In this document: positions 4,686 to 33,546 of the stretch, in pieces | Layout: every line of letters begins with the position of its first letter | Position numbering within the stretch: position 1 is the first letter of the stretch | Assembly: GCF_022899935.1 (NCBI RefSeq) | Contig: NZ_JALJCJ010000002.1 | Coordinates: 62,001 to 126,000, forward strand | Length of the DNA stretch: 64,000 bases | DNA from: Shinella curvata | Lineage (GTDB): Bacteria > Pseudomonadota > Alphaproteobacteria > Rhizobiales > Rhizobiaceae | Direction: 5' to 3' | Position numbers and translations under genes: made by a program | The notes under the pieces: generated by a model | What the model saw: only the letters and a program-made list of their open reading frames with translations | The model's database searches: none | What the model was told of the DNA's origin: nothing

Positions 4686-4716
4686 GGCTACGGACCTCAG
4701 TCGCATGAAGAAGCGG

Positions 4717-4745: not shown

Positions 4746-4826
4746 ATTTATATATATGAAAATAAATGATTTTTTTGGCGTCTTTCTCGGTTTGGCGTAT
4801 TGCCTCGCGCTGTCCAGAATTGCCAC

Positions 4827-4855
4827 TTGACAAAACTTCAGACTTCAAACAATTC
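4827..4855 (+). promoter_or_regulatory. Candidate promoter of the NicX-like catabolic operon
   Basis: The rest of the 4686-4910 gap is AT-rich and holds a consensus -35 (TTGACA, 4827-4832) and, 17 bases on, a weak -10 (CAATTC). Between them ACTTCA occurs twice in tandem, seven bases apart. A TetR-type regulator is encoded in the operon and could act here. The assignment rests only on position and motif shape. Confidence 0.3.
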
Positions 4856-4910
4856 TTAACTCATAAGTAAAGAAATCGCTGAGGGGCGATCCAAAAATCG
4901 GGAGGGTTCA

Positions 4911-5960
4911 ATGCTGCAGGAGCGCATTGAAGGGAAGTGGCTTGCCTGCTTCCGACGGGTTTTCGTGCTCAATGGAATAGGTCCGGGAACGCGGGTGGCG
5001 ATCGTGGCGGAAACGCAGTCGCGGCCGGTGCTGGTGCAGCTCGCCGATCTCGCTTGTCACGATCTCGGCGCCGACTATTGCATGATCACCATGCCGACCC
5101 CGCGCCAGACGGCGCCCGTTCCGGTGAAGTCGACCGGTACCTCGCTTGCCATCCAGGGTAACCGTGCGGCGATCGAAGCCATGAAGCAGTGTGAGATCAT
5201 CGTCGACTGCACGGTGGAGGGCATGATCCATGCCGCCGAATGGCCTGAGATCGAAGAGGCGGGCGCGCGTATCCTCGTCGTCTGCAACGAGCATCCGGAA
5301 ATCCTCGAACGCTGCGAGCCGACGGCCGAGCTTGGCCCCAAGGTGGCGCTCGGCATCCAGATGCTGCGCGAGGCGAAGGAGATGCGCGTGACCTCGGCCG
5401 CGGGCACCGATCTCGTCATCGATCTCAGGGATGCGCCCTGCGGCGGCACGCCGGGCTTCGGCACGACGCCGGGGGCCGTGGCGCACTGGCCGGGCGGCCT
5501 GTGCCTGGCCTTCCCCGGCCCGAACACCGTCAACGGCCGTATCGTCATGGATGTCGGCGATATGAACCTGACCTTCAAGAGCTACCTGACGAGCCGCATC
5601 GATTTCACCGTCGAGAACGATTTCGTCAAGGAAATCAAAGGTGACGGTTTGGATGCCGAGCTTTTCCGCGAGTACATGGAAGCCTGGGAAGATCCGTTGG
5701 CCTACGGCTTCTCGCATGTCGGCTGGGGCATGAACCCCGCCGCCCGCTGGGTCTCTGGCGCGCTCTATGACAAGCGCGACATGCAGGCCGTCGAGTTCCG
5801 CGCCTGGGCTGGCAATTTCCTCTGGTCCACCGGCGCCAACCAATATGCCGGCCGCTTCACCGAGGGGCATTTCGACCTGCCGATGCGCAAATGCACGATC
5901 ACGCTCGATGGCCGCGTGGTGGTGAAGGAAGGCCGTCTCCAGGGTGACCTCGCCCTCTGA
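4911..5960 (+). CDS. 2,5-dihydroxypyridine 5,6-dioxygenase (NicX)-like ring-opening dioxygenase
   Basis: Resembles NicX of nicotinate degradation, a mononuclear Fe(II) extradiol-type dioxygenase that opens 2,5-dihydroxypyridine to N-formylmaleamate. Length (349) fits the family, about 350. The known NicX metal ligands His265, His318 and Asp320 have counterparts here at His269 (GFSHVGWG), His320 and Asp322 (GHFDLP). NicX also belongs to the wider aminopeptidase-T-like superfamily, the likely label from automated annotation. It heads a tight run of catabolic genes. The substrate is uncertain: no nicotinate hydroxylase, maleamate amidase or maleate isomerase is visible in the window, so a related hydroxylated N-heterocycle is as likely as 2,5-dihydroxypyridine. 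Confidence 0.75.
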   Translation: MLQERIEGKWLACFRRVFVLNGIGPGTRVAIVAETQSRPVLVQLADLACHDLGADYCMITMPTPRQTAPVPVKSTGTSLAIQGNRAAIEAMKQCEIIVDCTVEGMIHAAEWPEIEEAGARILVVCNEHPEILERCEPTAELGPKVALGIQMLREAKEMRVTSAAGTDLVIDLRDAPCGGTPGFGTTPGAVAHWPGGLCLAFPGPNTVNGRIVMDVGDMNLTFKSYLTSRIDFTVENDFVKEIKGDGLDAELFREYMEAWEDPLAYGFSHVGWGMNPAARWVSGALYDKRDMQAVEFRAWAGNFLWSTGANQYAGRFTEGHFDLPMRKCTITLDGRVVVKEGRLQGDLAL

Positions 5961-5982
5961 CCGGATTTGAGAAGGACTGATC

Positions 5983-7293
5983 ATGAGCGAACCTGCAGAC
6001 TACTATGACCTCTCCCGCATCCGGCCCGAAGTGCTCGATGTCCTGACCCGCATCAACGAACTCGGCCGCGAGCGTTTTGCCCCACGCGCCAAAAGCGTCG
6101 ATGACGAGGCGTCCTTCCCGGTCGAGAACTACAAGGATCTCGCCGCCGAGGGTTTTCTGACATTGACGGTGCCAAAGGAATTCGGCGGCCACGGCTTCAG
6201 CCTCGGCGAATATGCCATGGTCGGCGCGGAGATCGGCAAATATTGCGGCGCCACCGCGCTCACCTTCAACATGCACAATTCCTCCATGATGTGGTCGCGC
6301 TTCATGTACGAGTTGCCGAACCTCACGGATGAGGACCGCGCCGCCTTCGCGCCGCTGCGCGAGCGCCAGTTCCGCCGTGCGGTGAAGGAGCAGGGCATCT
6401 ATTCGCAGCCGATCTCCGAGGCCGGGCAGAACTGGACCTCGAAGCCGGCGCAGACCTCTTGCTGCAAGGTCGAGGGCGGCTGGAAGATCAACGGCTTCAA
6501 GAAGTTCGCCTCGCTCGCCGGCTATTGTGACTATTACTCCATCGTCTGCACCGAGCATTTCGAGGGCATCGAGCCGCGCCACGAGGACACGATGATCTTC
6601 GTCGTGCACAAGGATGCGCCGGGGCTTTCCGTGACGGGCAGCTGGGATCCGCTCGGCATGCGCGGCACCAACAGCCGCGACCTGATCCTCAAGGACGTCT
6701 TCGTCACCGAGGAAGACCTGATGATGCCACGCGGCATCTTCATCAAGACCCTGCCGCACTGGCCGCATATGATGGCGACACTGTCGCCGACCTATATGGG
6801 CGTGGCGCAGGGCGCCTTCGATTTCACGGTCGCCTATCTGCGCGGCGAGGTGCCCGGCCAGCCGGCGGCCGACCGGCGCATGTTCGGCACCAAGCGCATC
6901 ACCGTGGGCAAGATGTACACCCAGCTCGCCGCCATGCGCGCGCTGTGGTGGCAGGCCTTCATGGAAGCGCAGGGCTTTCCGACCAAGGCGCAGGTCATGC
7001 GCATGTATGCCGCGCAGTACAATGTCATGGAGGGTGTGCAGGAGATCGCAGCACTCGCCATCCGCACCTGCGGCGGGCAGTCCATGCTGAAGACCATGCC
7101 GCTGGAGCGCATGTATCGCGACAGCCGATGCGGCGCGCTGATGCTGCCCTACACGACTGAGATCATGGAGGATTACCTCTCAGTCCTGACCCTTTACGAC
7201 ATGGACGAACTCGACAAAGCGCCGGGCGATGAGGGCGGTGCGCGCTCTTCGCTGTGGCGTGGTACGGGCGGCACGCTCAAGGGGCTGCGCTGA
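5983..7293 (+). CDS. Acyl-CoA dehydrogenase-fold flavoprotein lacking the usual catalytic Glu
   Basis: 436 residues with the three-part acyl-CoA dehydrogenase fold: helical N-domain, a beta domain near 140-250 (with MRGTNSRDLILKDVFV), and a C-terminal helical domain. In ordinary family members the base is the Glu of a C-terminal YEGT motif. Here the matching stretch reads LMLPYTTEI (about 386-394), so Pro389 stands where that Glu should be. The other acyl-CoA dehydrogenase in this window (31540-32727) keeps IYEG. Loss of the base, with a flavin reductase gene three genes downstream of it, suggests a two-component flavin monooxygenase of this fold rather than a dehydrogenase. Other base positions exist in the superfamily, so this is inference. 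Confidence 0.7.
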   Translation: MSEPADYYDLSRIRPEVLDVLTRINELGRERFAPRAKSVDDEASFPVENYKDLAAEGFLTLTVPKEFGGHGFSLGEYAMVGAEIGKYCGATALTFNMHNSSMMWSRFMYELPNLTDEDRAAFAPLRERQFRRAVKEQGIYSQPISEAGQNWTSKPAQTSCCKVEGGWKINGFKKFASLAGYCDYYSIVCTEHFEGIEPRHEDTMIFVVHKDAPGLSVTGSWDPLGMRGTNSRDLILKDVFVTEEDLMMPRGIFIKTLPHWPHMMATLSPTYMGVAQGAFDFTVAYLRGEVPGQPAADRRMFGTKRITVGKMYTQLAAMRALWWQAFMEAQGFPTKAQVMRMYAAQYNVMEGVQEIAALAIRTCGGQSMLKTMPLERMYRDSRCGALMLPYTTEIMEDYLSVLTLYDMDELDKAPGDEGGARSSLWRGTGGTLKGLR

Positions 7294-7296
7294 GCC

Positions 7297-8589
7297 ATGG
7301 TGGAGGAGCGGGTTCAGGTCATCGGATATTCCGCGGCAGAACCTGCTGCGGTCTGGGCGATCGTCGGCAATTTCTGCGGCGCCTGGCATCCCGTGATCGC
7401 GGAAATCAGGGCCGAACGCGATGAGCACGGCGCGCTGATCCGCGCCTTCACTACGAAGGGCGAGGAGACGCTCTATCGCGAACAGCTGACCTACCGTTCC
7501 GACACTGATCGTGTGCTCGCCTATACCCATCTCGAAGGCATTGTCGGTGTCGAGCGCTACGACGCCCGGCTTCAGGTCTTTGCCGGAGAGACCGGCGGCA
7601 GCCGGATCGAATGGTCGGCACGGCTTTCCGCCCCCGCCGAACGGGCATCGGCGATTGCCGCCGGCACCCGGGCGATTTTCGAAATGGGTCTTGCGGCACT
7701 TGATGGTTTCGTCGGGGATGTGCAGCCGAGCAAATCTGCTGCCTCCGAAGAGGAAGCACCTGTTCTCCGGACACTTTTCATTGACGGCGGTGCGCAACTC
7801 GCGCTGACCATCTCGCCGCAAAAGCCGGGGCCGCTGGTGCTGTTCCTGCACGGTATTGGCGGGGGCCGCAGCAATTGGTTGGCGCAGCTTCGCGCGGTTG
7901 CCCCAGCCCTGCGGGCTACCGCGCTCGACCTGCGGGGCTATGGCGAAAGCACTCTCGGCGCATCGCAAAGCACGGTCGAAGACTATTGCGATGACATTCT
8001 TCGGATTGCCGACGCGTTGGGGGCTCAAAAACTTGTGCTCTGCGGTCTCTCCTACGGATCGTGGATCGCCACCTCTTTCGCCATGCGCCATCCAGAAAGA
8101 CTGGCCGGCCTCGTTCTCTCCGGAGGTTGCACCGGCATGTCCGAGGCCGGTGTCGCGGAACGCGAGGCCTTTCGCACCGCGCGGGAAGTGCCGCTCGATG
8201 CCGGCAAGACCCCGGCCGATTTCGCGCCCGCCGTCGTCGATGTGCTGGCCGGTCCGAATGCGGGGGAGGCCGTGCGACAGGCGCTTTTCGCCTCGATGGC
8301 GGCCATTCCGACCGCAACGTATCGCGATGCGCTCACCTGCTTCACCAACCCGCCGGAGCGCTTCGATTTTGCCAGGCTCACCATGCCGGTGCTGATGATG
8401 ACCGGCGAACACGACCGCCTCGCATCCCCGGCCGAAATCCGCGGCGTGGCGAACCGCATAGTCGAGGCGGCCCCACGCGCCTGCGTCCGCTTCGAAGTCA
8501 TCGCGGATGCCGGCCATGTCTGCAATGTCGAGCAGCCCGAGACCTACAATCGGGTGCTCACGGAATTCCTCTCGGAGGTCGCATCATGA
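7297..8589 (+). CDS. START-like (SRPBCC) domain fused to an alpha/beta hydrolase
   Basis: 430 residues. About 1-140 looks like a polyketide-cyclase/START-like helix-grip domain that binds hydrophobic ligands. About 155-428 is an alpha/beta hydrolase with LHGIGGG (oxyanion loop), nucleophile Ser252 in GLSYGSW, acid Asp373 in EHDRL and His407 in DAGHVCN. In nicotinate degradation the step after NicX is catalysed by the alpha/beta hydrolase NicD (N-formylmaleamate deformylase), so a similar hydrolysis of the ring-opened product is plausible. The fusion is not part of NicD. It starts three bases after the preceding stop and overlaps the next start (ATGA), so translation is probably coupled. Confidence 0.75.
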   Translation: MVEERVQVIGYSAAEPAAVWAIVGNFCGAWHPVIAEIRAERDEHGALIRAFTTKGEETLYREQLTYRSDTDRVLAYTHLEGIVGVERYDARLQVFAGETGGSRIEWSARLSAPAERASAIAAGTRAIFEMGLAALDGFVGDVQPSKSAASEEEAPVLRTLFIDGGAQLALTISPQKPGPLVLFLHGIGGGRSNWLAQLRAVAPALRATALDLRGYGESTLGASQSTVEDYCDDILRIADALGAQKLVLCGLSYGSWIATSFAMRHPERLAGLVLSGGCTGMSEAGVAEREAFRTAREVPLDAGKTPADFAPAVVDVLAGPNAGEAVRQALFASMAAIPTATYRDALTCFTNPPERFDFARLTMPVLMMTGEHDRLASPAEIRGVANRIVEAAPRACVRFEVIADAGHVCNVEQPETYNRVLTEFLSEVAS

Positions 8590-9263
8590 CGGCTCTTCCC
8601 AAGCGCCAGCAGAACCGCATCCTGCGCGAGCGCCGCATTCTTGATGCCGCTCTCGTCGTCTTCTCGCAGAAGGGTTTCGTCAGCGCCTCGATGGATGACA
8701 TTGCCGCCGAGGCGGGCCTGACCAAGCCGACCCTCTATCAGTATTTCCCCTCCAAGGACGAGCTTTTCACGGCCATGATGACCGAGGAGCGGGATCACAT
8801 GCTCGAATCCTTCGAGTATCCTTCGGCATCCGGCATGGTCGCCGAACTCTACGCCTTCTCCTGGCACTATGCCGATGTCGTGCTGCGCCCTGACATGCTG
8901 AACCTCGCCCGGCTGATCATCGGGGAGGCGCAGCGACTGCCGGATGTCGGCCGGGCCTATCAGGCCTCCGGTCCCGACCGGGTGCTTGCCGGTATGATCG
9001 CCTATCTCGAGCGCCAGCGCGCAGCCGGCCGGCTCGTCTTCGACGATGCGGAACTGGCGGCGGAAGACCTCTGGGGTCTTATCCTTTCCGCGCCGCGCAA
9101 CAGGGCACTGCACATTCCCGATGCCGTGCCCGATCGTGGAACCATCGAACGCTACATCCGCAACGGTCTTCGTGTCTTCCTGCGCGCCTATTCCACGGCG
9201 CCGGAAAAGGACCTTGCCGCCCTTTCATCCCTGACGCCGCCGCCGGCCACCGCAACGGAGTGA
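8586..9263 (+). CDS. TetR-family transcriptional regulator
   Basis: 225 residues. The N-terminal helix-turn-helix (about 18-65) has the family pattern ILDAALVVFSQKGF, then MDDIAAEAGLTKPTLYQYF. The rest is a helical ligand-binding domain with a TetR_C-like stretch. It starts at an ATG overlapping the stop of the hydrolase fusion and overlaps the next gene at its own stop, so it is made with the pathway enzymes. It is the obvious candidate for controlling the 4.9-12.6 kb operon in response to a pathway intermediate, though no matching operator was identified. Confidence 0.9.
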   Translation: MTALPKRQQNRILRERRILDAALVVFSQKGFVSASMDDIAAEAGLTKPTLYQYFPSKDELFTAMMTEERDHMLESFEYPSASGMVAELYAFSWHYADVVLRPDMLNLARLIIGEAQRLPDVGRAYQASGPDRVLAGMIAYLERQRAAGRLVFDDAELAAEDLWGLILSAPRNRALHIPDAVPDRGTIERYIRNGLRVFLRAYSTAPEKDLAALSSLTPPPATATE

Positions 9264-9265
9264 CC

Positions 9266-10609
9266 ATGACCCTCGATGCCTATCTCGACGATCCCGCCAG
9301 CCGTTTCGCCACCGTCGCCATGACCGATACGAACGGCCTGCTGCGCGGCCAGATGGTGTCCGTGCGCTCGCTCGCCGGCATCGCGCGTGCGGGCATGGGC
9401 ATGTCGCCGGTCACCTTCGCGCTCGATCCGACCGACGTCGTGCTCACCATTCCCGGCGTCTCGGATGAAACCTCGGATTTCCACGACGACCCGCTGCTGC
9501 TGGATCCCTCGACGGTCCGCCGCCTGCCGTGGTCGAAGCCGGGGCACGACCTGCTGGTGCTCTCCAACTATGGCGGCGCGACGTCCGCACTTTGCCCGCG
9601 CTCGCTTCTGACGCGGGTGCTTGCGCGGGCCGGGGAGGCGGGTTATGCGCCGCGCTACGGCATGGAGCTGGAATATACGCTGTTCGACGAGACGCCGGAA
9701 AGCGCGCGCGAAAAGGGCTATCGCAACCTCAAGACCGCGACCATGCACAAGAGCCACGACCTCGTGCTCTATCAGGTGCAGCAGACGGAATGGTACGAGG
9801 CGCTCGCCGAAATCTGCGGGCCGCTGAAGATCGACCTCGCCAAGATGCATGAGGAGATCGGCGGCGGCTTCCTCGAAGCCTGCATCGCCGCCGGCACGGG
9901 GCTGGAGCCGGCCGACCAGCTCGTGCTTCTCAAGAATTTCGTGCGCGCGCTGGCGCAGCGGCAGGGCAAATGCGTCACCTTCATGCCGCGCTGGACGGAG
10001 GAGGCGGATAGCCAGTCGATCCATCTCCATGTCAGCCTCATGGGCAAGGACGGCGAAAAGGTCTTCCACGACCCCGCGGGTAAAAACGGCATGTCGCAGA
10101 CCTTCCGCCACTTCATCGGCGGCCTGCAGAAATATATCGGCGACATGACGCTGATCTTCCAGCCGACCGTCAATTCCTACCGCCGCTTCGCGCCGGGCAC
10201 CTTCGCGCCACCCGGCCTGACCTGGGGCTTCGAGAACCGCACGACCTGCTTCCGCGTCGTCGGCCATGATGCGGGCTCGCTGCGCGTCGAAAACCGTCTG
10301 CCGGGCGCCGATACCAATCCCTATCTGACGGTCGCCGCGACGGTTGCGGCCGGTGTCGCCGGCATCGTCGAGGGCATCGAGCCGGAGCCTGAGGTCATCG
10401 GCAATGGCTATGTGCAGGCGGGTGCCGGACCGGATTTCGCCCGCTCCATGCCCGAGGCGATCCAGCGCCTGCGCAATTCTGCCTTCACCAAGGACTGGCT
10501 CGGCGAGCGCTTCGTCGAGGCTTTCGCCGCGAGCCGCCAGAGCCAGCATGACGAATTCTGCAAGAAAGTACCCGATGTAGAACTGCAACGCTTCTTTGAC
10601 CTGGGGTAG
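9266..10609 (+). CDS. Glutamine synthetase-like ligase (possible gamma-glutamyl-amine synthetase)
   Basis: 447 residues from the ATG at 9266 (GGAG five bases upstream; a GTG at 9260 is also in frame). It has the glutamine synthetase catalytic domain: the MELEYTLFDE metal-binding strand, EEIGGGFLEA, the ATP/glutamate loop NSYRRFAPGTFAPPG and ENRLPGADTNPYL near the end. Such paralogues (PuuA, IpuC, aniline-type enzymes) often ligate glutamate to an amine instead of ammonia. Inside an operon for what looks like an N-containing aromatic, gamma-glutamylation of an amine is the most interesting reading; ammonium assimilation cannot be excluded. Confidence 0.8.
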   Translation: MTLDAYLDDPASRFATVAMTDTNGLLRGQMVSVRSLAGIARAGMGMSPVTFALDPTDVVLTIPGVSDETSDFHDDPLLLDPSTVRRLPWSKPGHDLLVLSNYGGATSALCPRSLLTRVLARAGEAGYAPRYGMELEYTLFDETPESAREKGYRNLKTATMHKSHDLVLYQVQQTEWYEALAEICGPLKIDLAKMHEEIGGGFLEACIAAGTGLEPADQLVLLKNFVRALAQRQGKCVTFMPRWTEEADSQSIHLHVSLMGKDGEKVFHDPAGKNGMSQTFRHFIGGLQKYIGDMTLIFQPTVNSYRRFAPGTFAPPGLTWGFENRTTCFRVVGHDAGSLRVENRLPGADTNPYLTVAATVAAGVAGIVEGIEPEPEVIGNGYVQAGAGPDFARSMPEAIQRLRNSAFTKDWLGERFVEAFAASRQSQHDEFCKKVPDVELQRFFDLG

Positions 10610-10613
10610 TGCC

Positions 10614-11120
10614 ATGAAACCGGAACTTCGCCTGCAATTCCTCGAAGGCATGAGCCGCGCCGCAACCTTCGTTGCCGTGGTGACGACGGATGGCGAGGCG
10701 GGACGCTTCGGCGTCACGATCAGTTCCCTCACATCGGTCTCGGCCGATGGCGACCATCCTTCGCTTCTCGCCTGCCTCCACCATATGAGCCCGGTTGCCG
10801 CGGCGATTCTGAAAAACCGCTCCTTCTGCGCGAACCTCCTCCACGAGGACCAGCATCAGGTCTCCGACCTTTTCGCGGGGCGGCTTTCGGCCGGCGAACA
10901 TGCCGAGCGTTTCGAGCGCACGCCCTGGTCGGCGGGCGAACTCGCCCAGCCGGCGCTCGACGGGGCGACGGCGAGCTTCCAGTGCCAGGTCGCGAGCTCG
11001 GTGCTCTGGGAAACGCATCACATCATCATCGGACGCGTCATGAACGTCCGCTTGTCGGAAAATCCGGCCTCTCTGCTCTACGGCCACCGGGCCTATCACC
11101 GGGCGGTTCAACTGTCGTAG
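10614..11120 (+). CDS. Flavin reductase (FMN-binding split-barrel)
   Basis: 168 residues, the usual size of the small flavin reductase component of two-component monooxygenases. Family hallmarks: FVAVVTTDGEAGRFGVTISS near the start, LLACLHH and the mid-protein FCANLLHEDQHQVSDLF stretch, and FQCQVASSV before the C-terminal H-x-I-x-x-G segment. It would reduce FMN or FAD with NAD(P)H and pass it to a partner oxygenase. The nearest candidate partner is the acyl-CoA-dehydrogenase-fold protein of this operon. It starts four bases after the ligase stop. Confidence 0.87.
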   Translation: MKPELRLQFLEGMSRAATFVAVVTTDGEAGRFGVTISSLTSVSADGDHPSLLACLHHMSPVAAAILKNRSFCANLLHEDQHQVSDLFAGRLSAGEHAERFERTPWSAGELAQPALDGATASFQCQVASSVLWETHHIIIGRVMNVRLSENPASLLYGHRAYHRAVQLS

Positions 11121-11196
11121 CGCACATAAAAACGAAAAGAGGCTGCGGATGCCGGTGGGGTGAGCCGGCGAATGGGGAACAAAACTGGAGAGACCA

Positions 11197-12639
11197 ATGA
11201 CTGACGTGACGACGGCGGGGGTAAACCAACTCCGCAGAAATTCGCTGGGGCTGATCGCCGTGACCTTCATGGTCATCTCGGCCGCCGCCCCGCTCACGGG
11301 CGTGGCCGGCGCGGTGCCCATCGCCTTCCTGCTCGGCAACGGCACGGGCATTCCCGCGACCTTCCTTCTGATGACGCTGATCATGCTGGCCTTCTCGGCC
11401 GGCTATGTGGCGATGTCGCGCCATGTCACCAATGCCGGTGCCTTCTATGCCTATGCCGCGCGCGGGCTCGGTGGGCGCATGGCCGGCGCGGTCGCGATCA
11501 TCGCGGTCGTTGCCTATAACGCCATGCAGTTCGGCCTGATCGGCCTGCTCGGCGGCGTGGCAGCGGGCGTCTTCGCCGGCTTCGGCATCGAATTGCCCTG
11601 GTATCTCTGGAGCCTGATTGCCGTCGCCCTCGTCGGCGTCCTCGGCTACCGGCAGGTCGATCTCTCCGCGAAGGTGATGATCGTGCTGGTGCTGCTCGAA
11701 TATCTCATCGTGCTCATCGTCGATTTCGCCATCCTCGCCAAGGGCGGCGCGGGCACGCTGTCGTTCAATTTCTTCGACACGACGGCCATGTTCTCCGGCT
11801 CGCTGACGGCGGCGATCCTGTTCTGCCTCGGCTCCTTCATCGGCTTCGAGGCGACGACGATCTATGCCGAGGAGGCACGCGATCCGGAAAAGACCATTCC
11901 ACGCGCGACTTATTTGTCCGTGTTGATGATCGGCCTGTTCTTCGTCTTCACCACCTGGCTGATGATCGCCGGCGTTGGCGCCGACAAGCTCCTGCCGACG
12001 ATCGGCGCGCTTCCGGATCCGACCGCCTTCTTCTTCGATCTCGCCGGCGCCTATGTCGGCGGCCCGGTACCGGCCATTGCCGGCCTGCTTCTGGTGTCGA
12101 GCCTGTTTGCGGCGATCAGCGCCTTCCATAACTACATCGCCCGCTACAGCTATGTCGCCGGTCGTGAAGGCCTGCTGCCGGCCGCCTTCGGCCGCACGCA
12201 TGATGCGCACCAGAGCCCGCATGTCGGCTCGGTGGTGCAGACGGTGATGGCACTGGTGGTGCTTGCGGTCTTTGCCGGTCTCGGGCTCGATCCGGTGCTC
12301 AACATGTTCACCTGGATCAGCCAGGTCGGCACGCTCGGCGTGCTCGGCATGATGACGATCACCTCGCTCTCGGTCATCGTCTTCTTCCGCAAGAAAGGCG
12401 GCGACGCTCCGGTGCTGACGACGCTCGTCCTGCCGGCCGTCTCGGGCCTCGTGATGGCGGCGCTCTTCGTCTACATCTTCATCAACTTCGGCGATCTCAC
12501 CCAGACCGCCGGCGGTTCGCTCGGCATCATCCTGCCGGCGCTGATCCCCGTCGCGGGCATTGCCGGTTTCCTGATGGCGAGCCGCCTCAAGGCATCCGAC
12601 CCGGCGGCCTATGCCCGCATGGGCCAGAATCGCGGTTAA
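11197..12639 (+). CDS. APC-family amino acid/amine permease
   Basis: 480 residues with about twelve hydrophobic helices and the APC-superfamily first-helix signature around SAAAPLTGVAGAVPIAFLLG. It is a secondary transporter for amino acids, polyamines or related amines in the inner membrane. A GGAGAG ribosome site precedes the ATG. It lies 76 bases after the flavin reductase and is the last gene of the operon, followed by a strong hairpin, so it probably imports the operon's substrate. The substrate is unknown. Confidence 0.88.
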   Translation: MTDVTTAGVNQLRRNSLGLIAVTFMVISAAAPLTGVAGAVPIAFLLGNGTGIPATFLLMTLIMLAFSAGYVAMSRHVTNAGAFYAYAARGLGGRMAGAVAIIAVVAYNAMQFGLIGLLGGVAAGVFAGFGIELPWYLWSLIAVALVGVLGYRQVDLSAKVMIVLVLLEYLIVLIVDFAILAKGGAGTLSFNFFDTTAMFSGSLTAAILFCLGSFIGFEATTIYAEEARDPEKTIPRATYLSVLMIGLFFVFTTWLMIAGVGADKLLPTIGALPDPTAFFFDLAGAYVGGPVPAIAGLLLVSSLFAAISAFHNYIARYSYVAGREGLLPAAFGRTHDAHQSPHVGSVVQTVMALVVLAVFAGLGLDPVLNMFTWISQVGTLGVLGMMTITSLSVIVFFRKKGGDAPVLTTLVLPAVSGLVMAALFVYIFINFGDLTQTAGGSLGIILPALIPVAGIAGFLMASRLKASDPAAYARMGQNRG

Positions 12640-12648
12640 ACAATCTGG

Positions 12649-12674
12649 GCGGCGCCGGCCTGTGCCGGCGCCGC
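12649..12674. terminator. Bidirectional hairpin between convergent genes
   Basis: Perfect 11-bp stem GCGGCGCCGGC / GCCGGCGCCGC with a four-base loop (CTGT), placed between the permease stop and the stop of the convergent hydrolase gene. It lacks a U-tract, but stem strength and position suit a two-way transcription barrier. Confidence 0.6.
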
Positions 12675-12682
12675 TGATCTCG

Positions 12683-13513
12683 TCAGATGGACAGAAGCTG
12701 GCGCGTCAGCGGATGCTGCGCATCGGCAAGGCCGTCGATGACGTTGAAATGGTGCCTGTCCGGCTCGACGACTTCAGCCGTGGTCGCGCCGAGACCGGTC
12801 CAGATATTGGCGAGCAGCGCATTCTGCCGCAGGAATTCCGACCGCTCGTTGCCGCCCACCCAGCAGGTGATGCGGGCATTTTCCATGGGCCGCAGCAAGG
12901 CGGGGCTTTCCGCGAGCGCTTCCGCCTCATCGATGGCAAGCCTCGCATTCATGGCGGTCGAGAGCATCGGGCGCAGGTCGTGCACGCCTGAAATCGAGAC
13001 GACGTTGCGGATGCGCCCCTGGACCTCCGGCGCGAGTGGCGCCGTCGCCGTCACCATGCGGCTGGCGAGATGCCCGCCGGCCGAATGCCCGGTCAGCAGC
13101 AGCGGTCCCTCGACATGGCGTGCCGCCTCCGTCACCGCCGCGGCGATCTCCTTGACGATCACGGCGATGCGCACCTCGGGGCAAAGCGTATAGGACGGCA
13201 TGGCGACGGCATAACCGCTCTCGATGCTGCCGGCGGCCAGATGCGACCAGAAACTCTTGTCGAGTTGCAGCCAGAAGCCGCCATGCACGAAGACGACAAG
13301 GCCTTTTGGCGTGCCCTCCGGCAGGAAAAGGTCGAGGCGGTTGCGCGGCCGCTCGCCATAAGCGAGGTCGAGTTTCGCGCGACCTGCGGCGGAAAGCGTG
13401 GTGCGGAAGGTTTCGGCGGGCTCCACCCAGGCGGCCGGCCAGCGATCGCCGCGCGCGATATTCGCGCCGTTGGAATAGGCGTCGTCCCAGTCCGATATAC
13501 GGTGTTCCAGCAT
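12683..13513 (-). CDS. Alpha/beta hydrolase, probable kynurenine formamidase
   Basis: Likely hydrolyses N-formylkynurenine to kynurenine and formate. 276 residues from an ATG with a strong GGGAGGAG ribosome site; the open frame runs further upstream but has no good start. Fold and motifs match the alpha/beta-hydrolase arylformamidase type, not the metal-dependent KynB type: HGGFW oxyanion loop (77-81), nucleophile Ser144 in GHSAGGHLA, an acidic residue in GGNERSEFLRQ and His in HHFNVID near 254-259. The assignment leans on context: tryptophan dioxygenase and an anthranilate-CoA ligase are divergent from it and kynureninase lies a few kilobases on, and no other formamidase candidate is seen. 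Confidence 0.75.
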   Translation of the reverse strand: MLEHRISDWDDAYSNGANIARGDRWPAAWVEPAETFRTTLSAAGRAKLDLAYGERPRNRLDLFLPEGTPKGLVVFVHGGFWLQLDKSFWSHLAAGSIESGYAVAMPSYTLCPEVRIAVIVKEIAAAVTEAARHVEGPLLLTGHSAGGHLASRMVTATAPLAPEVQGRIRNVVSISGVHDLRPMLSTAMNARLAIDEAEALAESPALLRPMENARITCWVGGNERSEFLRQNALLANIWTGLGATTAEVVEPDRHHFNVIDGLADAQHPLTRQLLSI

Positions 13514-13805: not shown

Positions 13806-15422
13806 ATGCTTGGACCGACCGCTCACGTCGATACGTTCACCCGCGACAACCTGCCGCCGCCGGAGGAATGGCCGGATTTCCTGCTCGACGGGTTCGATTA
13901 TCCCGATCGCATCAACGCTGCCGTCGAGCTGACGGATGCCTTGGTCGCCAAGGGTTTCGGCGATCGCACCGCGCTCATCGGCAACGGCCGCCGCCGCACC
14001 TACAAGGAGCTGTCCGATTGGACGAACCGGCTGGCCCATGCGCTGGTCGAGAATTACGGCGTGAAGCCCGGCAACCGCATCCTCATCCGTTCGGCCAACA
14101 ATCCCGCCATGGTCGCTTGCTGGCTCGCCGCCACCAAGGCGGGCGCGGTCGTCGTCAACACGATGCCGATGCTGCGCGCCGGCGAACTCACCAAGATCGT
14201 CGACAAGGCGGAGATCAGCCTCGCGCTCTGCGACACGCGCCTGATGGACGAGATGATCGCCTGCGCCAAGGACAGCCGCTTCCTCAAGCAGGTCATCGGC
14301 TTCGACGGCACCGCCAATCACGATGCCGAACTCGACCGGGCCGCGCTCGATAAGTCCGTGATCTTCGAGGCCGTGCACACCGGCCGCGACGACGTGGCGC
14401 TGCTCGGCTTCACCTCGGGCACGACGGGCGTGCCCAAGGCGACCATGCATTTCCACCGCGACCTGCTGATGATCGCCGACGGCTATGCCAAGGACGTGCT
14501 CGGCGTGACGCCGGAGGACGTGTTCGTCGGCTCGCCGCCGCTTGCCTTCACCTTCGGCCTCGGCGGCCTCGCCATCTTCCCGCTGCGTTTCGGCGCGGCC
14601 GCGACCCTGCTCGAACAGGCGACGCCGCCGCAGATGGTCGAGATCATCGAGACCTACAAGGCAACGATCTCGTTCACAGCACCCACTGCCTATCGCGCCA
14701 TGCTGAAGGCGATGGATGCCGGCGCCGACCTCTCATCGCTGCGCGTCGCCATTTCCGCCGGCGAAACCTTGCCCGGTCCGGTCTTCGAGGAATGGACGCA
14801 AAAGACCGGCAAACCGATCCTCGACGGCATCGGTGCGACCGAGATGCTGCATATCTTCATTTCCAACCGCTTCGAGGACCGCAAGCCGGCCTCCACCGGC
14901 AAGCCGGTCGGCGGTTACGAGGCGCGCATCGTCGACGAGGACATGCAGGAAGTGCCGCGCGGCACGGTCGGCCGTCTTGCCGTGCGCGGCCCGACCGGCT
15001 GCCGCTACATGGCCGATGACCGTCAGCGCGACTATGTCCGCGACGGCTGGAACCTCACCGGCGACGCCTTTCTGCAGGACGAGGACGGCTTCTTCCATTT
15101 CGCCGCCCGATCGGACGACATGATCGTCAGCGCCGGCTACAACATTGCAGGCCCGGAAGTGGAGGCGGCCCTGATCGCGCATGCCGATGTGGCCGAATGC
15201 GCCGTGGTCGGTGCGCCGGATGGCGACCGCGGCCAGATTGTCGAGGCTCACGTCGTGCTGGTGGCCGGCGTCTCGGCAGACGAGGCGACGATCAAGCGGC
15301 TGCAAGATCATGTGAAGGCGCTGATCGCCCCTTACAAATATCCACGCTCGGTGAAGTTCCTGGATACCCTGCCGAAGACGGCGACCGGAAAGATCCAGCG
15401 TTTTCGCCTGCGGGAGCATTGA
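13806..15422 (+). CDS. 2-aminobenzoate (anthranilate)-CoA ligase
   Basis: Activates anthranilate with ATP and CoA to 2-aminobenzoyl-CoA, the first step of the aerobic CoA-thioester route. About 538 residues from the ATG at 13806; the frame extends to a TTG at 13764, but the family start fits MLGPTAHVDTF. It is an AMP-forming acyl-CoA synthetase: P-loop FTSGTTGVPKA, GATEM (A5), SDDMIVSAGYNIAGPEVE (hinge, A8) and the C-terminal catalytic Lys in TATGKIQRF. Its benzoate-CoA-ligase-like form and neighbours (tryptophan dioxygenase immediately after, matching monooxygenase at 27.6 kb) favour anthranilate over benzoate. It probably starts a long operon continuing into the ABC importer genes. Confidence 0.85.
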   Translation: MLGPTAHVDTFTRDNLPPPEEWPDFLLDGFDYPDRINAAVELTDALVAKGFGDRTALIGNGRRRTYKELSDWTNRLAHALVENYGVKPGNRILIRSANNPAMVACWLAATKAGAVVVNTMPMLRAGELTKIVDKAEISLALCDTRLMDEMIACAKDSRFLKQVIGFDGTANHDAELDRAALDKSVIFEAVHTGRDDVALLGFTSGTTGVPKATMHFHRDLLMIADGYAKDVLGVTPEDVFVGSPPLAFTFGLGGLAIFPLRFGAAATLLEQATPPQMVEIIETYKATISFTAPTAYRAMLKAMDAGADLSSLRVAISAGETLPGPVFEEWTQKTGKPILDGIGATEMLHIFISNRFEDRKPASTGKPVGGYEARIVDEDMQEVPRGTVGRLAVRGPTGCRYMADDRQRDYVRDGWNLTGDAFLQDEDGFFHFAARSDDMIVSAGYNIAGPEVEAALIAHADVAECAVVGAPDGDRGQIVEAHVVLVAGVSADEATIKRLQDHVKALIAPYKYPRSVKFLDTLPKTATGKIQRFRLREH

Positions 15423-16259
15423 ATGAGCAAGCCTTACGACCCCTCGAAGGAAGGCGCGCAGATGTCGTTCGAAGGGCGCATGTCCTACAGCGATTATCTC
15501 ATGCTGGAAAAGGTGCTGACCGCGCAGGAGCCGCTTTCGACGGCGCATGACGAGATGCTGTTCATCATCCAGCATCAGACCTCCGAGCTCTGGATGAAGC
15601 TGGCGCTGCACGAGATCAGCTCAGCCATCCGTGCCGTGCGCGAGGACCGGCTGGAACCGGCCTTCAAGATGCTGACGCGGGTCGCACGTATCTTCGAGCA
15701 GCTGAACAGCGCCTGGGACGTGCTGCGCACGATGACGCCGAGCGAATATACCGAATTCCGCGAGAGCCTCGGCCAGTCCTCCGGCTTCCAGTCCTGGCAG
15801 TACCGGGCCATCGAATTCCTCGCCGGCAACCGCAACCTCGCCATGCTGCGCCCGCATGCCCATCGCCCCGACCTGATGGAAAAGCTCGAGGCGATCCTGG
15901 CGGCGCCTTCGCTCTACGACGAGGCGATCCGGCTTCTCGCCCGCAACGGTTTCGACGTCGGGGAAGAAGCCGAGCGCCGGGACTGGCGTGAGACGCGCGC
16001 CGAAAACGACAAGGTTTTTGCCGCCTGGCAGACCGTCTATCGCAATCCGCAGCGCTACTGGATGCTCTACGAACTGGCCGAAAAGCTCGTCGATTTCGAG
16101 GACTATTTCCGCCGCTGGCGCTTCAACCATGTCACGACCGTCGAGCGCATCATCGGCTTCAAGCGCGGCACCGGCGGCACGTCCGGGGCATCCTACCTGA
16201 AGAAGATGCTGGAAGTGGAACTCTTCCCCGAGCTATGGCATGTTCGCACAGAGCTTTGA
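15423..16259 (+). CDS. kynA: Tryptophan 2,3-dioxygenase
   Basis: Haem enzyme that opens the indole ring of L-tryptophan to N-formylkynurenine. 278 residues, typical for bacteria. Key residues of the well-studied Xanthomonas enzyme (His55, Arg117, haem ligand His240, Thr254) map with a constant shift of four to His51 in IIQHQTSE, Arg113 in EFRESL, His236 in [10 protein letters not shown] and Thr250 in KRGTGG. The ATG comes directly after the ligase stop, so the two are co-translated. With the formamidase and kynureninase it completes the conversion of tryptophan to anthranilate. Confidence 0.96.
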
Positions 16260-21872: not shown

Positions 21873-23120
21873 TCAGGTCACGGCCGCGCGGACTGCGAAA
21901 CGCGCATCCTTCCACGCGCCGGTCGTCAGGATATCCTCGAGGATTTCGACGGACTTCCACACATCTTCATAGCTGACATAGAGCGGCGTGAAGCCGAAGC
22001 GCATGGTGGATGGCGCGCGGAAATCGCCGATGACGCCGCGGGCGATCAGCGCCTGCATGATCTCATAGGCGTGCGGATGGCTGAACGAGACCTGGCTGCC
22101 GCGCTTGGCGCGGTCGCGCGGGCTTTCGAGCTCCAGGCCATGCGCCGCGCATTTTGCCTCGACCAACGCGATGAACAGATCGGTCAGGCCGAGGCTTTTT
22201 TCACGCAGCGCCGCCATGTCGACCTCTTCCCAGATGTCGAGCGCACCTTTCAGCGCGCGCATCGAGAGGATCGGCTGGGTGCCGCAGAGGAAGCGCAGCA
22301 TGCCCTTGCCGGCGGCATAGCTTTTCTCGAAGGCAAAAGGCCGGGCGTGGCCCCACCAGCCGCTGAGCGGTTGGCTGACATCGCCGTGGTGGCGTGTCGC
22401 GGCATAGATGAAGGCCGGGGCGCCCGGGCCGCCGTTGAGATATTTGTAGGTGCAGCCAACGGCGAAATCGACATCGGCGCCATCGAGATCGACGGGCAGG
22501 GCGCCGGCCGTATGGCAGAGGTCCCAGATGACGAGCACGCCGTGTTCATGCGCCTTCTTCGTCAGCGCCGCCATGTCGCGCAGTTCACCGGACTTGTAGT
22601 TGACGTGATTGACGAGCACCACAGCGACGCTGTCATCGATCAGCTCCTCAATGGTGTCGGCATCGACGCCTTCGAGGCGCAACGTTCCGCCCGGCCGGGT
22701 CGAGAGGACGCCTTCGGCCATGTAGAGGTCCGTCGGGAAGCTGCCACCCTCGCTGACGATGACCGAGCGGTCGGGCCGAAGCGCCATCGCGGCATGCAGC
22801 GCCTTGTAGATGTTGATCGAGGTCGTGTCGCAGACGGCGGTCTGGCCGGCGGCGGCCCCGATGAGCCGGCCGACGCGGTCGCCTAGCGTCAGCGGCATGT
22901 CGAACCAGCCGGCCGTGTTCCAGCTGCGGATGAGATCCTGGCCCCATTCCTGGGTGGCGGCCTGCTGCAGTTCGGCAAAGGCGGCCTTGGAGGCGACGCC
23001 GAGCGAATTGCCGTCGAGATAGATCAGGCCATCCGGCAGGATGAAGCGGTCGCGGAAGGCGCGTAGTGCATCGGCCGCATCCATGGCCTCGACGGCGGAG
23101 AAATCGGGAATGGCAGTCAT
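21873..23120 (-). CDS. kynU: Kynureninase
   Basis: PLP enzyme splitting kynurenine into anthranilate and alanine. 415 residues, normal length. The Schiff-base Lys226 lies in GCTYKYLNGGPG, matching the kynureninase motif, with Asp in VIWDLCHTAG contacting the cofactor. N-terminal YLDGNSLG is also characteristic. Its product is the substrate of the CoA ligase at 13.8 kb, tying the two arms together. It lies ten bases downstream of the ABC permease gene in the same minus-strand operon, which suggests that importer brings in kynurenine or tryptophan. Confidence 0.95.
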   Translation of the reverse strand: MTAIPDFSAVEAMDAADALRAFRDRFILPDGLIYLDGNSLGVASKAAFAELQQAATQEWGQDLIRSWNTAGWFDMPLTLGDRVGRLIGAAAGQTAVCDTTSINIYKALHAAMALRPDRSVIVSEGGSFPTDLYMAEGVLSTRPGGTLRLEGVDADTIEELIDDSVAVVLVNHVNYKSGELRDMAALTKKAHEHGVLVIWDLCHTAGALPVDLDGADVDFAVGCTYKYLNGGPGAPAFIYAATRHHGDVSQPLSGWWGHARPFAFEKSYAAGKGMLRFLCGTQPILSMRALKGALDIWEEVDMAALREKSLGLTDLFIALVEAKCAAHGLELESPRDRAKRGSQVSFSHPHAYEIMQALIARGVIGDFRAPSTMRFGFTPLYVSYEDVWKSVEILEDILTTGAWKDARFAVRAAVT

Positions 23121-27598: not shown

Positions 27599-29917
27599 AT
27601 GCGGATCGTCTGTATCGGTGGTGGGCCTGCCGGTCTCTATTTCGCGCTTCTGATGAAGCGCCAGCATCCCGAACACCAGATCACCGTCGTCGAGCGCAAC
27701 CGGGCTTTCGATACCTTCGGCTGGGGTGTTGTCTTTTCCGATGCCACCATGCAGTCGATGCGCCAGTGGGATCCGGAAACAGCGGAAGCGATCGAGGTTT
27801 CTTTCAACCATTGGGATGATATCGAGCTGGTCTTCAAGGGCCGCAAGATCCGTACCACCGGCCATGGCTTCGTCGGCATCGGCCGCAAGAAGATGCTCAA
27901 CATCCTGCAGGAGCGCTGCCTGGAACTCGGCGTCGAGCTGCTGTTCGAGCGCGACGTGCAGGGCGACGAGGAATTCCCGGACGCCGACCTCATCATCGCG
28001 GCCGATGGCGTGAATTCCCGCATCCGCAACAAATATGCCGACGTCTTCCAGCCCGACATGGTGGTGCGGCCGAACCGCTATATCTGGCTCGGCACCAACA
28101 AGCCGTTCGATGCCTTCACCTTCGATTTCCAGCGCACCGAACACGGCTGGTTCCAGGCGCATGTCTACCGCTTCGACGACACGACCTCGACCTTCATCGT
28201 CGAGACGACCGACGAGGTCTTCAAGGCGCATGGGCTCGATAAGATGGACCAGGACCAGTCCATCGCCTTCTGCGAAAAGCTCTTTGCCGAAACGCTCGAC
28301 GGCCACAGTCTAATGACCAATGCGCGCCACATGCGCGGCTCCGCTTGGCTGAATTTCGGCCGGCTGATCTGTGAGAAATGGAGCCATTTCAACGGCAACA
28401 GCCATGTTGTGCTGATGGGTGACAGCGCCCACACCGCCCACTTCGCCATCGGCTCCGGCACCAAGCTTGCCATCGACGACGCGATCGAGCTGACCCGCCA
28501 GTTCGACATCCTCGGCCACGACAAGGCCAATATCCCGGCCGTGCTCGCGGCTTACGAAGAGGTGCGCCGGGTCGATGTCGCGCGCATCCAGAATGCCGCG
28601 CGCAACGCCATGGAATGGTTCGAGGTGGTCGGCACGCGCTATGCCGATACGCTGGAGCCGGAACAGTTCATGTATTCCATGCTGACGCGCTCGCAGCGCA
28701 TCAGCCACGAGAATCTACGCCTGCGCGACCGGGAGTGGCTGGAAGGTTTCGAGCGCTGGTTCGCCGAACGCGCGGGCGCGGAAAAGGCCGCCAACGGCGC
28801 CGTGCCGCCGCCGATGTTCACGCCCTTCAAGCTGCGCGGCCTGACGCTTCGCAACCGCATCGTCGTCTCGCCGATGGCGATGTATTCGGCGACGGATGGA
28901 ATGCCGGGCGACTTCCATCTCGTGCATCTCGGCGCGCGCGCCATGGGCGGTGCCGCGCTCGTTTTTCCCGAAATGACCTGCGTCTCGCCGGATGCGCGCA
29001 TCACGCCCGGTTGCCTTGGTCTGTGGAAAGACGAGCAGCAGCAAGCCTTCCAGCGCATCGTCGATTTCGTGCATCACGAAACGCCCGCCAAGATCGGCAT
29101 CCAGCTCGGTCATGCCGGGCGCAAGGGGGCGACGAAGCTTGCGTGGGAGGGCATCGACCAGCCGCTGTCGGAAGGCGGCTGGCCGCTGATCTCGGCTTCG
29201 GCCTTGCCCTATCTCAAGCATTCTGAGACGCCGCGCGAAATGACCCGCGAGGACATGGACCGTGTCATCGCGGATTTCGTGACGGCGACCGAACGGGCGC
29301 GTGATATCGGCTTCGACATTCTCGAACTGCATGCCGCGCACGGCTATCTCCTGTCGAGCTTCCTCTCGCCGCTCACCAACCAGCGCACCGACGACTACGG
29401 TGGCGACCACGCGGCGCGCGCGCGCTTCCCGCTCGAAGTGTTCCACGCAATCCGCAAGGTCTGGCCTGAGGACAGGCCGATCTCGGTGCGCCTCTCGACC
29501 AACGACTGGCACGAAGGCGGCAACACGCCGGAGGATGCGGCGATCTTCGCGAAGATGTTCAAGGAGGCCGGGGCCGACATGATCGACTGCTCGTCCGGTC
29601 AGGTGGTGAAGGAGGAGAAGCCGGTCTATGGCCGCCTGTTCCAGACGCCGTTCTCCGACAAGATCCGCAACGAGATCCAGGTGCCGACCATCGCCGTCGG
29701 TGCGATTTCCGAGGCCGACCACGCCAATTCGATCATTGCCGCCGGCCGCGCCGATCTCTGCGCCGTCGCCCGCCCGCATCTCGCCGACCCGTCCTTCGTC
29801 ATGCATGAGGCCGCGAAGATCGGCTATGACGCCCAGCCCTGGCCGAAACAATATCATTCCGCCCGCGCGCAATATGTGAACAATCTCGCCCGCGCGACGA
29901 CGGCAGGTAAATCATGA
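27599..29917 (+). CDS. 2-aminobenzoyl-CoA monooxygenase/reductase (two-domain flavoenzyme)
   Basis: Dearomatises 2-aminobenzoyl-CoA by hydroxylation and hydride reduction to a 2-amino-5-oxo-cyclohexene-carboxyl-CoA product. 772 residues, the size of the Azoarcus evansii enzyme. Residues 1-385 form a class A flavin monooxygenase half: GGGPAGLYF dinucleotide loop and [20 protein letters not shown], the second FAD motif. Residues about 402-770 form an old-yellow-enzyme/FMN half: [43 protein letters not shown] and YGG. The same architecture is often labelled salicylyl-CoA 5-hydroxylase, so salicylyl-CoA is an alternative; the ligase and kynurenine genes favour anthranilate. First gene of a seven-gene operon, with an ATGA overlap into the next gene. 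Confidence 0.88.
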
Positions 29918-30684
29918 GCAAACGGCACGCTTTCGTCACGGGTGCCGGCAGCGGCATCGGCAAGGCCATCGCGCTGGCGCTTGCGGCCGAGGGCCATATC
30001 GTCAGCCTCGCCGGCCGGCGGGCCGGGCCTCTCGAGGCCGTGCGTGACGAAATCCGCGCGGCCGGCGGCGAGGCCTTCGTCCACGAGGGTTTCGACGTAA
30101 CGGATGCTGCTGCGGTCGAACGTGGCATCGCGGCTGCCATCTCCTCGGCCGGCGAGATCGCTGTGCTCGTCAATTGTGCCGGTGAGGCCCCTTCGGCACC
30201 CTTCGAAAAGACCGATTTCGCCCTCTGGCAGCGTGTGCTCTCCATCAACCTCACGGGCGTCTATATCGTTATGCAGGCGGCACTTCCCTCCGTGCGCCGC
30301 GCCGGCAAGGGCCGCATCATTAATGTCGCGAGCACGGCAGGCCTGACCGGCTATGCCTATGTCTCGGCTTACTGCGCTTCCAAACATGGCGTCATCGGCC
30401 TGACGCGGGCGCTGGCGCTGGAACTGGCACGCACCGACGTCACCGTCAACGCCGTCTGCCCCGGCTTCACCGATACGCCGCTGATAGACAACGCGCTCGA
30501 TACGATCACGGAAAAAACCGGCCGCTCGCGCGAGGAGGCGCGCGCCAGCCTCGCCCGCTCTAATCCGCAGGGCCGGCTGGTGAGCCCGGCCGAGGTGGCG
30601 CACACCGTTTCCTGGCTCGCCTCGGAAGGGGCAAGCGCGATCACCGGACAGGCCATTGCGGTCGCCGGCGGCGAAATTCTCTGA
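29914..30684 (+). CDS. Short-chain dehydrogenase/reductase (3-hydroxyacyl-CoA dehydrogenase-like)
   Basis: 256 residues. Classical [15 protein letters not shown] cofactor loop, NCAGEAP, Ser of [10 protein letters not shown] and Tyr/Lys in YCASKHGV. The catalytic Tyr position reads YVSAYCASK, as in active family members. It starts inside the stop of the monooxygenase/reductase gene (ATGA). In the pathway it could oxidise a 3-hydroxyacyl-CoA or act on the alicyclic intermediate. Confidence 0.88.
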
Positions 30685-30695
30685 GGGATGACGAC

Positions 30696-31538: not shown

Positions 31539-31539
31539 T

Positions 31540-32727: not shown

Positions 32728-32736
32728 GGAGGCTTC

Positions 32737-33538: not shown

Positions 33539-33546
33539 GCGTGAAG

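Follow-up and report, generated by a model that had tools for sequence, protein, structure and literature searches.

The stretch analysed here, hereafter the window, comprises 64,000 nucleotides of Shinella curvata DNA (assembly GCF_022899935.1, contig NZ_JALJCJ010000002.1, positions 62,001 to 126,000), and its subject is a run of seven genes that includes a relative of the ring-cleaving dioxygenase NicX. An initial annotation, made from the sequence alone, had described the run as a single operon with short or overlapping joints. Open reading frame (ORF) calls and Pfam searches confirm this on the plus strand at 4911-12639, and Pfam domains were found for each of the two-domain hydrolase, TetR regulator, glutamine-synthetase (GS)-like enzyme, flavin reductase and APC permease that it had named. 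The operon and its upstream edge read, in order:

4811..4910, plus strand: upstream stretch co-conserved with the operon, probably its promoter/operator region; the megablast match to Ensifer plasmids starts at 4811.
4911..5960, plus strand: predicted NicX-like non-heme Fe(II) ring-cleavage dioxygenase, 349 aa; E 4.2e-57 to NicX (PDB 7cn3); Fe ligands kept as H269/S306/H320/D322; NicX Glu177 replaced by T180.
5983..7293, plus strand: putative two-component flavin monooxygenase of the acyl-CoA dehydrogenase (ACAD) fold, 436 aa; PF02771/02770/00441; YEG base motif absent.
7297..8589, plus strand: fusion of SRPBCC and alpha/beta-hydrolase (ABH) domains, 430 aa; PF10604 and PF00561; triad S252/D373/H407 by motif.
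8586..9263, plus strand: TetR/AefR-like regulator, 225 aa; PF00440 and PF14246.
9266..10609, plus strand: GS-like ligase, probably amine:glutamate, 447 aa; PF00120; PGTFAP motif.
10614..11120, plus strand: flavin reductase, 168 aa; PF01613; RutF/HpaC-like, under the equivalog cutoffs.
11197..12639, plus strand: APC-family permease, 480 aa; PF13520.

The TetR start at 8586 overlaps the stop of the preceding fusion gene, a GTG at 9260 is an alternative possible start of the GS-like gene, and a longer reductase ORF begins with TTG at 10596. A promoter scan of 4600-12900 returned no sigma-70-like site against a shuffled mean of 1.4, a terminator scan gave 5 candidates against 5.3 in shuffles, that is, not above chance, and the inverted repeats in 4690-4915 were short-armed or A+T palindromes only.

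The gene order recurs across many genomes more often than chance would allow. A contig scan with the window flavoprotein as query found 86 relatives, 80 of which define the set of loci, designated below by L numbers where they must be told apart. With our own gene caller and clustering at a minimum of 40% identity, the families present among these 80 were the NicX-like protein (76), the hydrolase (72), TetR (66), the GS-like protein (62), the flavin reductase (52) and the APC permease (35), all lower bounds because short contigs are included. NicX and flavoprotein genes are contiguous in 73 of the 80 loci, with the hydrolase added in 68, TetR in 61, GS in 53, the flavin reductase in 47, and all seven genes in 31. 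Failure of the genes to co-occur elsewhere was one of the refutations that the initial annotation had named for its proposal; these counts show that they do co-occur. By record title, the carriers are mostly Rhodobacteraceae, Rhizobiaceae and Mesorhizobium, joined by SAR116 and by gammaproteobacteria (Granulosicoccaceae and a Bugula symbiont).

The operon also behaves as a transferable unit. In a megablast search of 4600-12700, the operon with its edges (4811-12698) matched plasmids of Ensifer adhaerens at 93.2% DNA identity; the plasmid is annotated with an IS3 transposase at one flank and, at the opposite flank, with toxin-antitoxin genes plus an IS30 transposase. The flanks in the window differ from these, being a siderophore-uptake set upstream and tryptophan genes downstream. 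Shinella PSBB067 and Sinorhizobium RAC02 carry the operon at 86.4% identity by megablast, and plasmid pAA02 of Aminobacter aminovorans carries it with a flavoprotein 79% identical and with a LysR effector domain joined to the flavin reductase. The neighbours in the window are:

196-4685: siderophore-uptake set, namely a TonB receptor (ferrichrome/ferrioxamine type), a periplasmic binding protein and a siderophore-interacting FAD protein with DUF2218.
12683..13513, minus strand: alpha/beta hydrolase, kynurenine formamidase candidate from its neighbours; PF20434/PF07859 on ORF 12683-13627.
13806..15422, plus strand: aryl-CoA ligase, probably 2-aminobenzoate-CoA ligase; TIGR02262 at 374 bits, cutoff 375.
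15423..16259, plus strand: tryptophan 2,3-dioxygenase; PF03301.
16299-20845: ABC transporter, branched-chain type.
21873..23120, minus strand: kynureninase; TIGR01814 over cutoff.
23130-25889: second ABC transporter.
27599..29917, plus strand: NF006101 flavoenzyme with a two-domain architecture like that of 2-aminobenzoyl-CoA monooxygenase/reductase; 1354 bits, cutoff 1078; PF01494 and PF00724.
29914..35505, plus strand: rest of the CoA pathway, comprising a short-chain dehydrogenase/reductase, enoyl-CoA hydratase, acyl-CoA dehydrogenase, thioesterase-like protein and 3-hydroxyacyl-CoA dehydrogenase.

Anthranilate is best known as an intermediate of tryptophan breakdown, and the genes from 12683 to 35505, outside the operon proper, form an island for the conversion of tryptophan through kynurenine and anthranilate to 2-aminobenzoyl-CoA. 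Since the position of this island beside the operon could be accidental, the ANTHRANILATE link was tested through co-occurrence across genomes. NF006101, which we take to be 2-aminobenzoyl-CoA monooxygenase/reductase and which bears the NCBIfam name salicylyl-CoA 5-hydroxylase/oxidoreductase, occurred in 50 of 50 operon genomes, 49 of them over cutoff. These 50 stand for as many of the 80 loci, the other 30 being short contigs, some metagenome-assembled genomes (MAGs) and other loci, and ligase-type loci L177-L180; five of the 50 (L120, L124, L142, L165 and L175) have no GS called at the locus. The background in Rhodobacteraceae was 54/149. Because earlier draws had scored few candidates per genome, 50 of the 95 negative Rhodobacteraceae were re-examined, now scoring as many as 16 candidates in each, and 0/50 turned positive with the same model that gave matches in other genome sets. 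Wider backgrounds were 75/385 for the class and 61/199 for the order, perhaps undercounted because scoring stopped at 2 and 4 candidates in each genome, respectively. A control aromatic family, TIGR02422 (protocatechuate 3,4-dioxygenase beta), was found in 26/50 operon genomes. In the class draw, NF006101 accompanied 19 of 24 flavoprotein-positive genomes, nearly all ligase-type, versus 56/361 others (p about 8e-11); in the order draw it accompanied 22 of 23 genomes with a strong NicX match (E<1e-90) versus 39/176 (p about 4e-12). Both p-values are overstated, since the genomes are related.

Gene neighbourhoods point the same way, and the operon is tied genomically to anthranilate/2-aminobenzoyl-CoA catabolism. 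An aryl-CoA ligase gene directly follows the APC gene, with a gap of 58-155 bp, in seven of the 80 loci (L103, L118, L121, L123, L125, L138 and L150); it ends the run in five of these, while L118 and L121 have more genes within 250 bp. The post-APC ligases are 77-80% identical to the ligase of the window; for ligases encoded inside 2-aminobenzoyl-CoA clusters, identity to the window ligase is 77.8% in L058 and 76.6% in L166. Kynureninase was matched in 47/50 operon genomes, and the three without a match include L103 and L150, in both of which the ligase ends the run; these two therefore have no visible kynurenine supply for their 2-aminobenzoyl-CoA route. Absence is weaker evidence in L103 and L113, both MAGs, of which L103 may be incomplete. 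The 2-aminobenzoyl-CoA genes adjoin the operon in L166, lie two genes away in L163, and adjoin a sister-type cluster, described below, in L081, L087 and L091. The aerobic 2-aminobenzoyl-CoA pathway of NF006101 type would be the route downstream of the operon and is distinct from it.

The marine spread of the operon brings to mind N-methylpyridinium compounds such as homarine, which would be degraded to N-methylglutamate by C5-C6 cleavage with loss of formate. NicX-type cleavage would suit that chemistry, marine and soil organisms are among the carriers, and PMC13390433, in its accessible part, cites published work on a pathway for homarine in environmental bacteria. Neither the aryl-CoA ligase after the operon in seven loci nor the 50/50 link to 2-aminobenzoyl-CoA fits, however, and homarine is for that reason a very improbable substrate.

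The enzyme on which the chemistry would turn is the dioxygenase. No Pfam or NCBIfam model matched it at E≤0.001, and its sole PDB sequence match at E≤1 is NicX of P. putida KT2440. The iron of NicX is held by four residues, His265, Ser302, His318 and Asp320, according to the portion of PMC7910607 at hand. All four are present in the window protein, such that the initial annotation was right that the ligands are kept and wrong in counting three. Among proteins longer than 330 aa, the His and Ser ligands are kept in 77/77 members of the window set and in 29/29 other NicX homologues, and the Asp ligand in 76/77 (the exception being L149) and 29/29. The equivalents of NicX His105 and His189 are kept in all 77 proteins, as is that of Arg293 in the window protein; Glu308 is replaced by Tyr in the window clade. 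In NicX, Glu177 hydrogen-bonds both N1 and O1 of 2,5-dihydroxypyridine (PMC7910607, same portion). The corresponding residue is Thr in 74 of the 77 proteins and Val in the other three, which come from ligase-type loci L178-L180, hence Thr in 74/74 proteins of the window clade; in 28 of the 29 other homologues the position holds Val, Gly, Ile or Gln, mostly one of the first three. With the iron ligands and both histidines kept and Glu177 changed, the dioxygenases of the window clade, judged by these residues, have probably retained the NicX chemistry and changed the substrate. The sole keeper of Glu177 among the 29 homologues, L079 7325-8362, is a better candidate for a true dihydroxypyridine dioxygenase.

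These substitutions bear directly on 2,5-dihydroxypyridine, the substrate that the initial annotation had put forward for assay, and on a nicotinate- or hydroxypyridine-type pathway from it to maleamate and fumarate. The conserved iron ligands and histidines speak for it, and so does the hydrolase gene close by, as the pairing of NicX with an ABH protein characterises the nic pathway. Nevertheless, the uniform Thr at the Glu177 position leaves this substrate unsupported, neither a maleamate-amidohydrolase nor a maleate-isomerase family was found by Pfam among 30 window proteins (196 to 35505), the rest of the genome not having been searched for them, and the 2-aminobenzoyl-CoA link would go unaccounted for. 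Such a pathway is thus quite improbable here. The annotation peptidase M29, which window-clade proteins bear in the records seen, is probably a misnomer, as 2,5-dihydroxypyridine dioxygenase would probably also be.

The flavoprotein resembles, among its closest sequences and folds, 5z8t ('Flavin-containing monooxygenase'), 5gj7, nitrososynthases and true ACADs; its AlphaFold2 model has a mean predicted local distance difference test (pLDDT) score of 79.3. As the initial annotation had noticed, the family base appears to be missing: a YEG motif within the last 80 residues occurs in 0/83 relatives, and MLP(Y/F/W)T(T/S/A)E(I/L) stands near the C terminus in 82/83, the exception being L168. By motif order this site would be the place of the dehydrogenase glutamate, with the register inferred and with isovaleryl-CoA dehydrogenase as a case of an alternative base position. 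The protein is best described as a putative ACAD-fold two-component flavin monooxygenase, predicted to oxygenate with reduced free flavin, and a partner flavin reductase is encoded nearby. A lone homologue (44%) lies at L057 9956-11203, on a Dolichospermum plasmid amid integrase and transposase genes. At L032 19701-20879, where the domains were checked, a protein bearing a LysR annotation proved to be a flavin reductase fused to the substrate-binding domain of LysR; L119, L134, L138, L141, L147, L148, L150, L157 and L172 possibly carry the same fusion, judged by length.

In the hydrolase, S252, D373 and H407 are invariant in 17/17 aligned relatives in two alignments, and the model (mean pLDDT 87.6) retrieves esterase and enol-lactonase folds. 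Structure searches with the hydrolase and the flavoprotein returned generic classes only (esterase/enol-lactonase and ACAD/flavin monooxygenase), none naming a substrate. The GS-like protein falls under the NCBIfam cutoffs for GlnA, GGputSyn and gln_synth_III. Its PGTFAP motif, present in 64/66 relatives, stands where 8oow has PGYEAP, whose Glu is presumably the flap glutamate of ammonia glutamine synthetase; PGxEAP occurs in 0/66.

Taken by family, the enzymes fit the catabolic scheme that had been proposed from the sequence alone, in which a ring is oxygenated with reduced flavin and cleaved, with hydrolysis and with a glutamylated amine as an intermediate. The scheme can now be made more specific: a transferable operon that would convert an imported amine with a benzo-fused nitrogen ring, most likely of indole type such as tryptamine, to anthranilate. 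We give this reading a probability of roughly 0.45, and we infer each of its reactions, their order and the substrate from enzyme families and genomic context. The APC permease would import the amine, and the GS-like ligase would cap its side-chain amino group with gamma-glutamate. The flavoprotein, fed reduced flavin by the operon reductase, would then hydroxylate the nitrogen ring, and the dioxygenase would cleave the bond that joins the hydroxylated carbon to its neighbour next to nitrogen, leaving an N-acyl or N-formyl product. The SRPBCC-hydrolase would take off the acyl part to release anthranilate, much as NicD removes the N-formyl group left by NicX. Finally, an aryl-CoA ligase would activate anthranilate to 2-aminobenzoyl-CoA for the monooxygenase pathway. 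The bond broken would be of the type that NicX breaks in 2,5-dihydroxypyridine, where a C(OH)-C(H)-N unit is cleaved and an N-formyl group remains (PMC7910607, in the part consulted); applied to a hydroxylated indole or quinolone, this reaction would yield an N-formyl or N-acyl anthranilate derivative. Such a route would call for a two-component flavin monooxygenase that introduces the hydroxyl, along with an Fe(II) dioxygenase and a serine hydrolase. The presence of a GS-like ligase and of an APC permease hints at a primary amine, of which tryptamine is the simplest natural candidate.

The same enzyme logic could act on a quinoline or quinolone ring (kynurenate, a 4-quinolone or an alkylquinolone), with hydroxylation at C3, NicX-like opening of the pyridine ring and deacylation to anthranilate. 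NicX itself opens a pyridine ring (PMC7910607, same portion), the 2-aminobenzoyl-CoA link would fit equally, and the TRAP transporter of the sister cluster suits acids. Such a substrate leaves the ligase and permease, with their hint of a primary amine, unexplained, and the seven operon genes include no molybdopterin hydroxylase by Pfam; we regard a quinoline-type ring as unlikely, though worth keeping in mind.

The sister cluster itself occurs in alphaproteobacterial genomes as a NicX-ABH-ACAD module whose hydrolase lacks SRPBCC; genes for an acyl-CoA ligase and for a TRAP transporter come next, the transporter being identified by the name that these families carry in Sagittula. Of 37 loci (L062-L100, picked by a match to NicX or to the flavoprotein, two without called genes set aside), 22 have the three genes contiguous, 18 have them together with the ligase and 11 together with the complete transporter. 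The NicX proteins of loci with the module are 44-58% identical to that of the window, and in a NicX tree the 21 GS-type rows (ligase-type L179 set aside) form one branch with support 98/99. Some sister loci have a divergent flavin reductase and MarR regulator; at L062 8368-9312, by Pfam, the two are fused within the ligase-type cluster. The acyl-CoA ligase and TRAP transporter suggest an acid. Both clusters might accordingly be sister NicX-type openers of the indole ring, the GS/APC type acting on a gamma-glutamyl indole amine and the CoA-ligase/TRAP type on the CoA thioester of an indole acid such as indole-3-acetate, a pairing that we consider rather doubtful. A route from auxin to anthranilate through 2-formaminobenzoylacetate has been proposed for Bradyrhizobium (PMC8383072, in the part available); were the pairing true, the CoA-ligase/TRAP cluster would supply the missing genes of that route.

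Several observations weigh against an indole-type amine as precursor of anthranilate. Removal of the side chain and of the glutamyl group is unexplained by the proposed pathway; no amidotransferase lies in the window operon, and the best gamma-glutamyl amidotransferase match in the Shinella genome is weak (E 4e-7). GTFAP is common to the closest PDB chains of the GS-like protein, 11zs and 5dm3, both named glutamine synthetases. GS is missing from 18 of the 80 loci, short contigs included, and is therefore not essential to the core. In place of APC, L163 encodes a complete TctABC carboxylate transporter and L166 the TctC component; TctC lies upstream of NicX in both, with TctB and TctA downstream in L163. 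A second flavin reductase directly precedes NicX in 25/80 loci, superfluous for anthranilate-CoA chemistry, which likewise has no need of the adjacent cupin and fumarylacetoacetate hydrolase (FAA-hydrolase) genes found near the operon in 26/80. In the unselected Rhodobacteraceae draw the link to NF006101 is not clear (7/14 flavoprotein-positive genomes versus 47/135 others), and the seven negatives among the former stayed negative on deeper search; by flavoprotein identity, NF006101 was present in 4/4 genomes at ≥81%, 2/6 at 69-71% and 1/4 at about 50%.

Some of this could be accommodated if the substrate were a different aromatic amine, degraded toward gentisate or homoprotocatechuate, and the anthranilate link an inherited neighbourhood. 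The cupin and FAA-hydrolase genes of the 26 loci, with families as in L032, whose cupin is closest to gentisate 1,2-dioxygenase, would then find a use, as would hpa-like dehydrogenase and dioxygenase genes near the operon in 6 and 5 of the 80 loci, named by length and order only; the Rhodobacteraceae draw would also fit. Yet the cupin, FAA-hydrolase and hpa genes are absent from the window block and from most of the 80 loci, and NF006101 occurs in all 50 operon genomes tested, which makes this explanation improbable. A nitrilase-family gene is present in 16/80 loci, the L032 copy having been checked.

Comparison with described systems bears on how new the proposed conversion of an indole-type amine would be. 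Like NicX, the dioxygenase has the sequence family, the four ligands, the Arg293, His105 and His189 equivalents and an ABH protein encoded close by; unlike NicX, it has lost Glu177 and Glu308, and no maleamate-pathway family is among the 30 window proteins scanned with Pfam. IacA of the auxin-degrading iac loci presumably belongs to the ACAD-like family, with IacG as its reductase. The iac and iad loci degrade the indole ring to an aromatic acid, iac starting with IacA and iad ending in anthranilate, as far as the accessible parts of PMC9613470 and PMC12633357 go. They centre on Rieske-type oxygenases (IacC/D and IadD/E), of which Pfam found none among the seven operon genes. Degradation of indole-3-acetate by an iac/iad system was rejected for the window genes because the accessible text names no NicX for either locus and the window flavoprotein has no BLAST match (E≤1) to an IacA-like protein of Sagittula, itself named by gene order. 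The iif/ind indole pathway shares with the pathway proposed for the operon a two-component flavin oxygenase, an anthranilate product and, in Cupriavidus, a downstream 2-aminobenzoyl-CoA cluster; it differs in its short-chain dehydrogenase and cofactor-independent oxygenase IifA, and the part of PMC6221969 consulted describes no NicX, GS or SRPBCC-hydrolase.

A literature search on the gene set and on NicX, auxin/indole, homarine and tryptamine topics, with most subscription papers outside its coverage, found no matching cluster, in agreement with the initial annotation, to which no described pathway with this set was known; the operon combines known enzyme families in a way, and with a probable role, undescribed in the literature searched. 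Beyond that first description, the analysis adds the 2-aminobenzoyl-CoA link, the adjacent tryptophan-to-anthranilate genes, the CoA-ligase/TRAP sister cluster and the finding that the unit is mobile. If the proposed role is right, it would extend ring cleavage by the NicX family beyond simple pyridines, put gamma-glutamyl protection to a new use, and give Alphaproteobacteria of soil, fresh water and sea a widespread source of anthranilate; were the substrates indole amines or auxin, it would also bear on plant-microbe signalling.

Gamma-glutamylation opens pathways for amines such as aniline, isopropylamine and putrescine, which combine a GS-like ligase with a gamma-glutamyl amidohydrolase and an oxygenase, and the operon resembles these in joining a GS-like ligase to a putative oxygenase. 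It has no amidotransferase, with only weak matches in the genome, and adds a NicX-type dioxygenase and an SRPBCC-hydrolase. A class-I amidotransferase does accompany the ligase elsewhere: it follows the flavin reductase in L163 and L166, and stands between the GS-like ligase and a P450 in three-gene runs at L058 11986-15293 (Sagittula) and L059 12007-15324 (Novosphingobium). The GS proteins of these two runs are 53-56% identical to that of the window, and the Sagittula run sits between 2-aminobenzoyl-CoA and iac-like genes. At L163 11320-13281 and L166 11311-13269, the SRPBCC domain, the alpha/beta hydrolase and a TetR-like part, the last read by eye, form one ORF of 652-653 aa. At L032 22460-24608, an old-yellow-enzyme-type protein is split over two overlapping ORFs, a possible frameshift.

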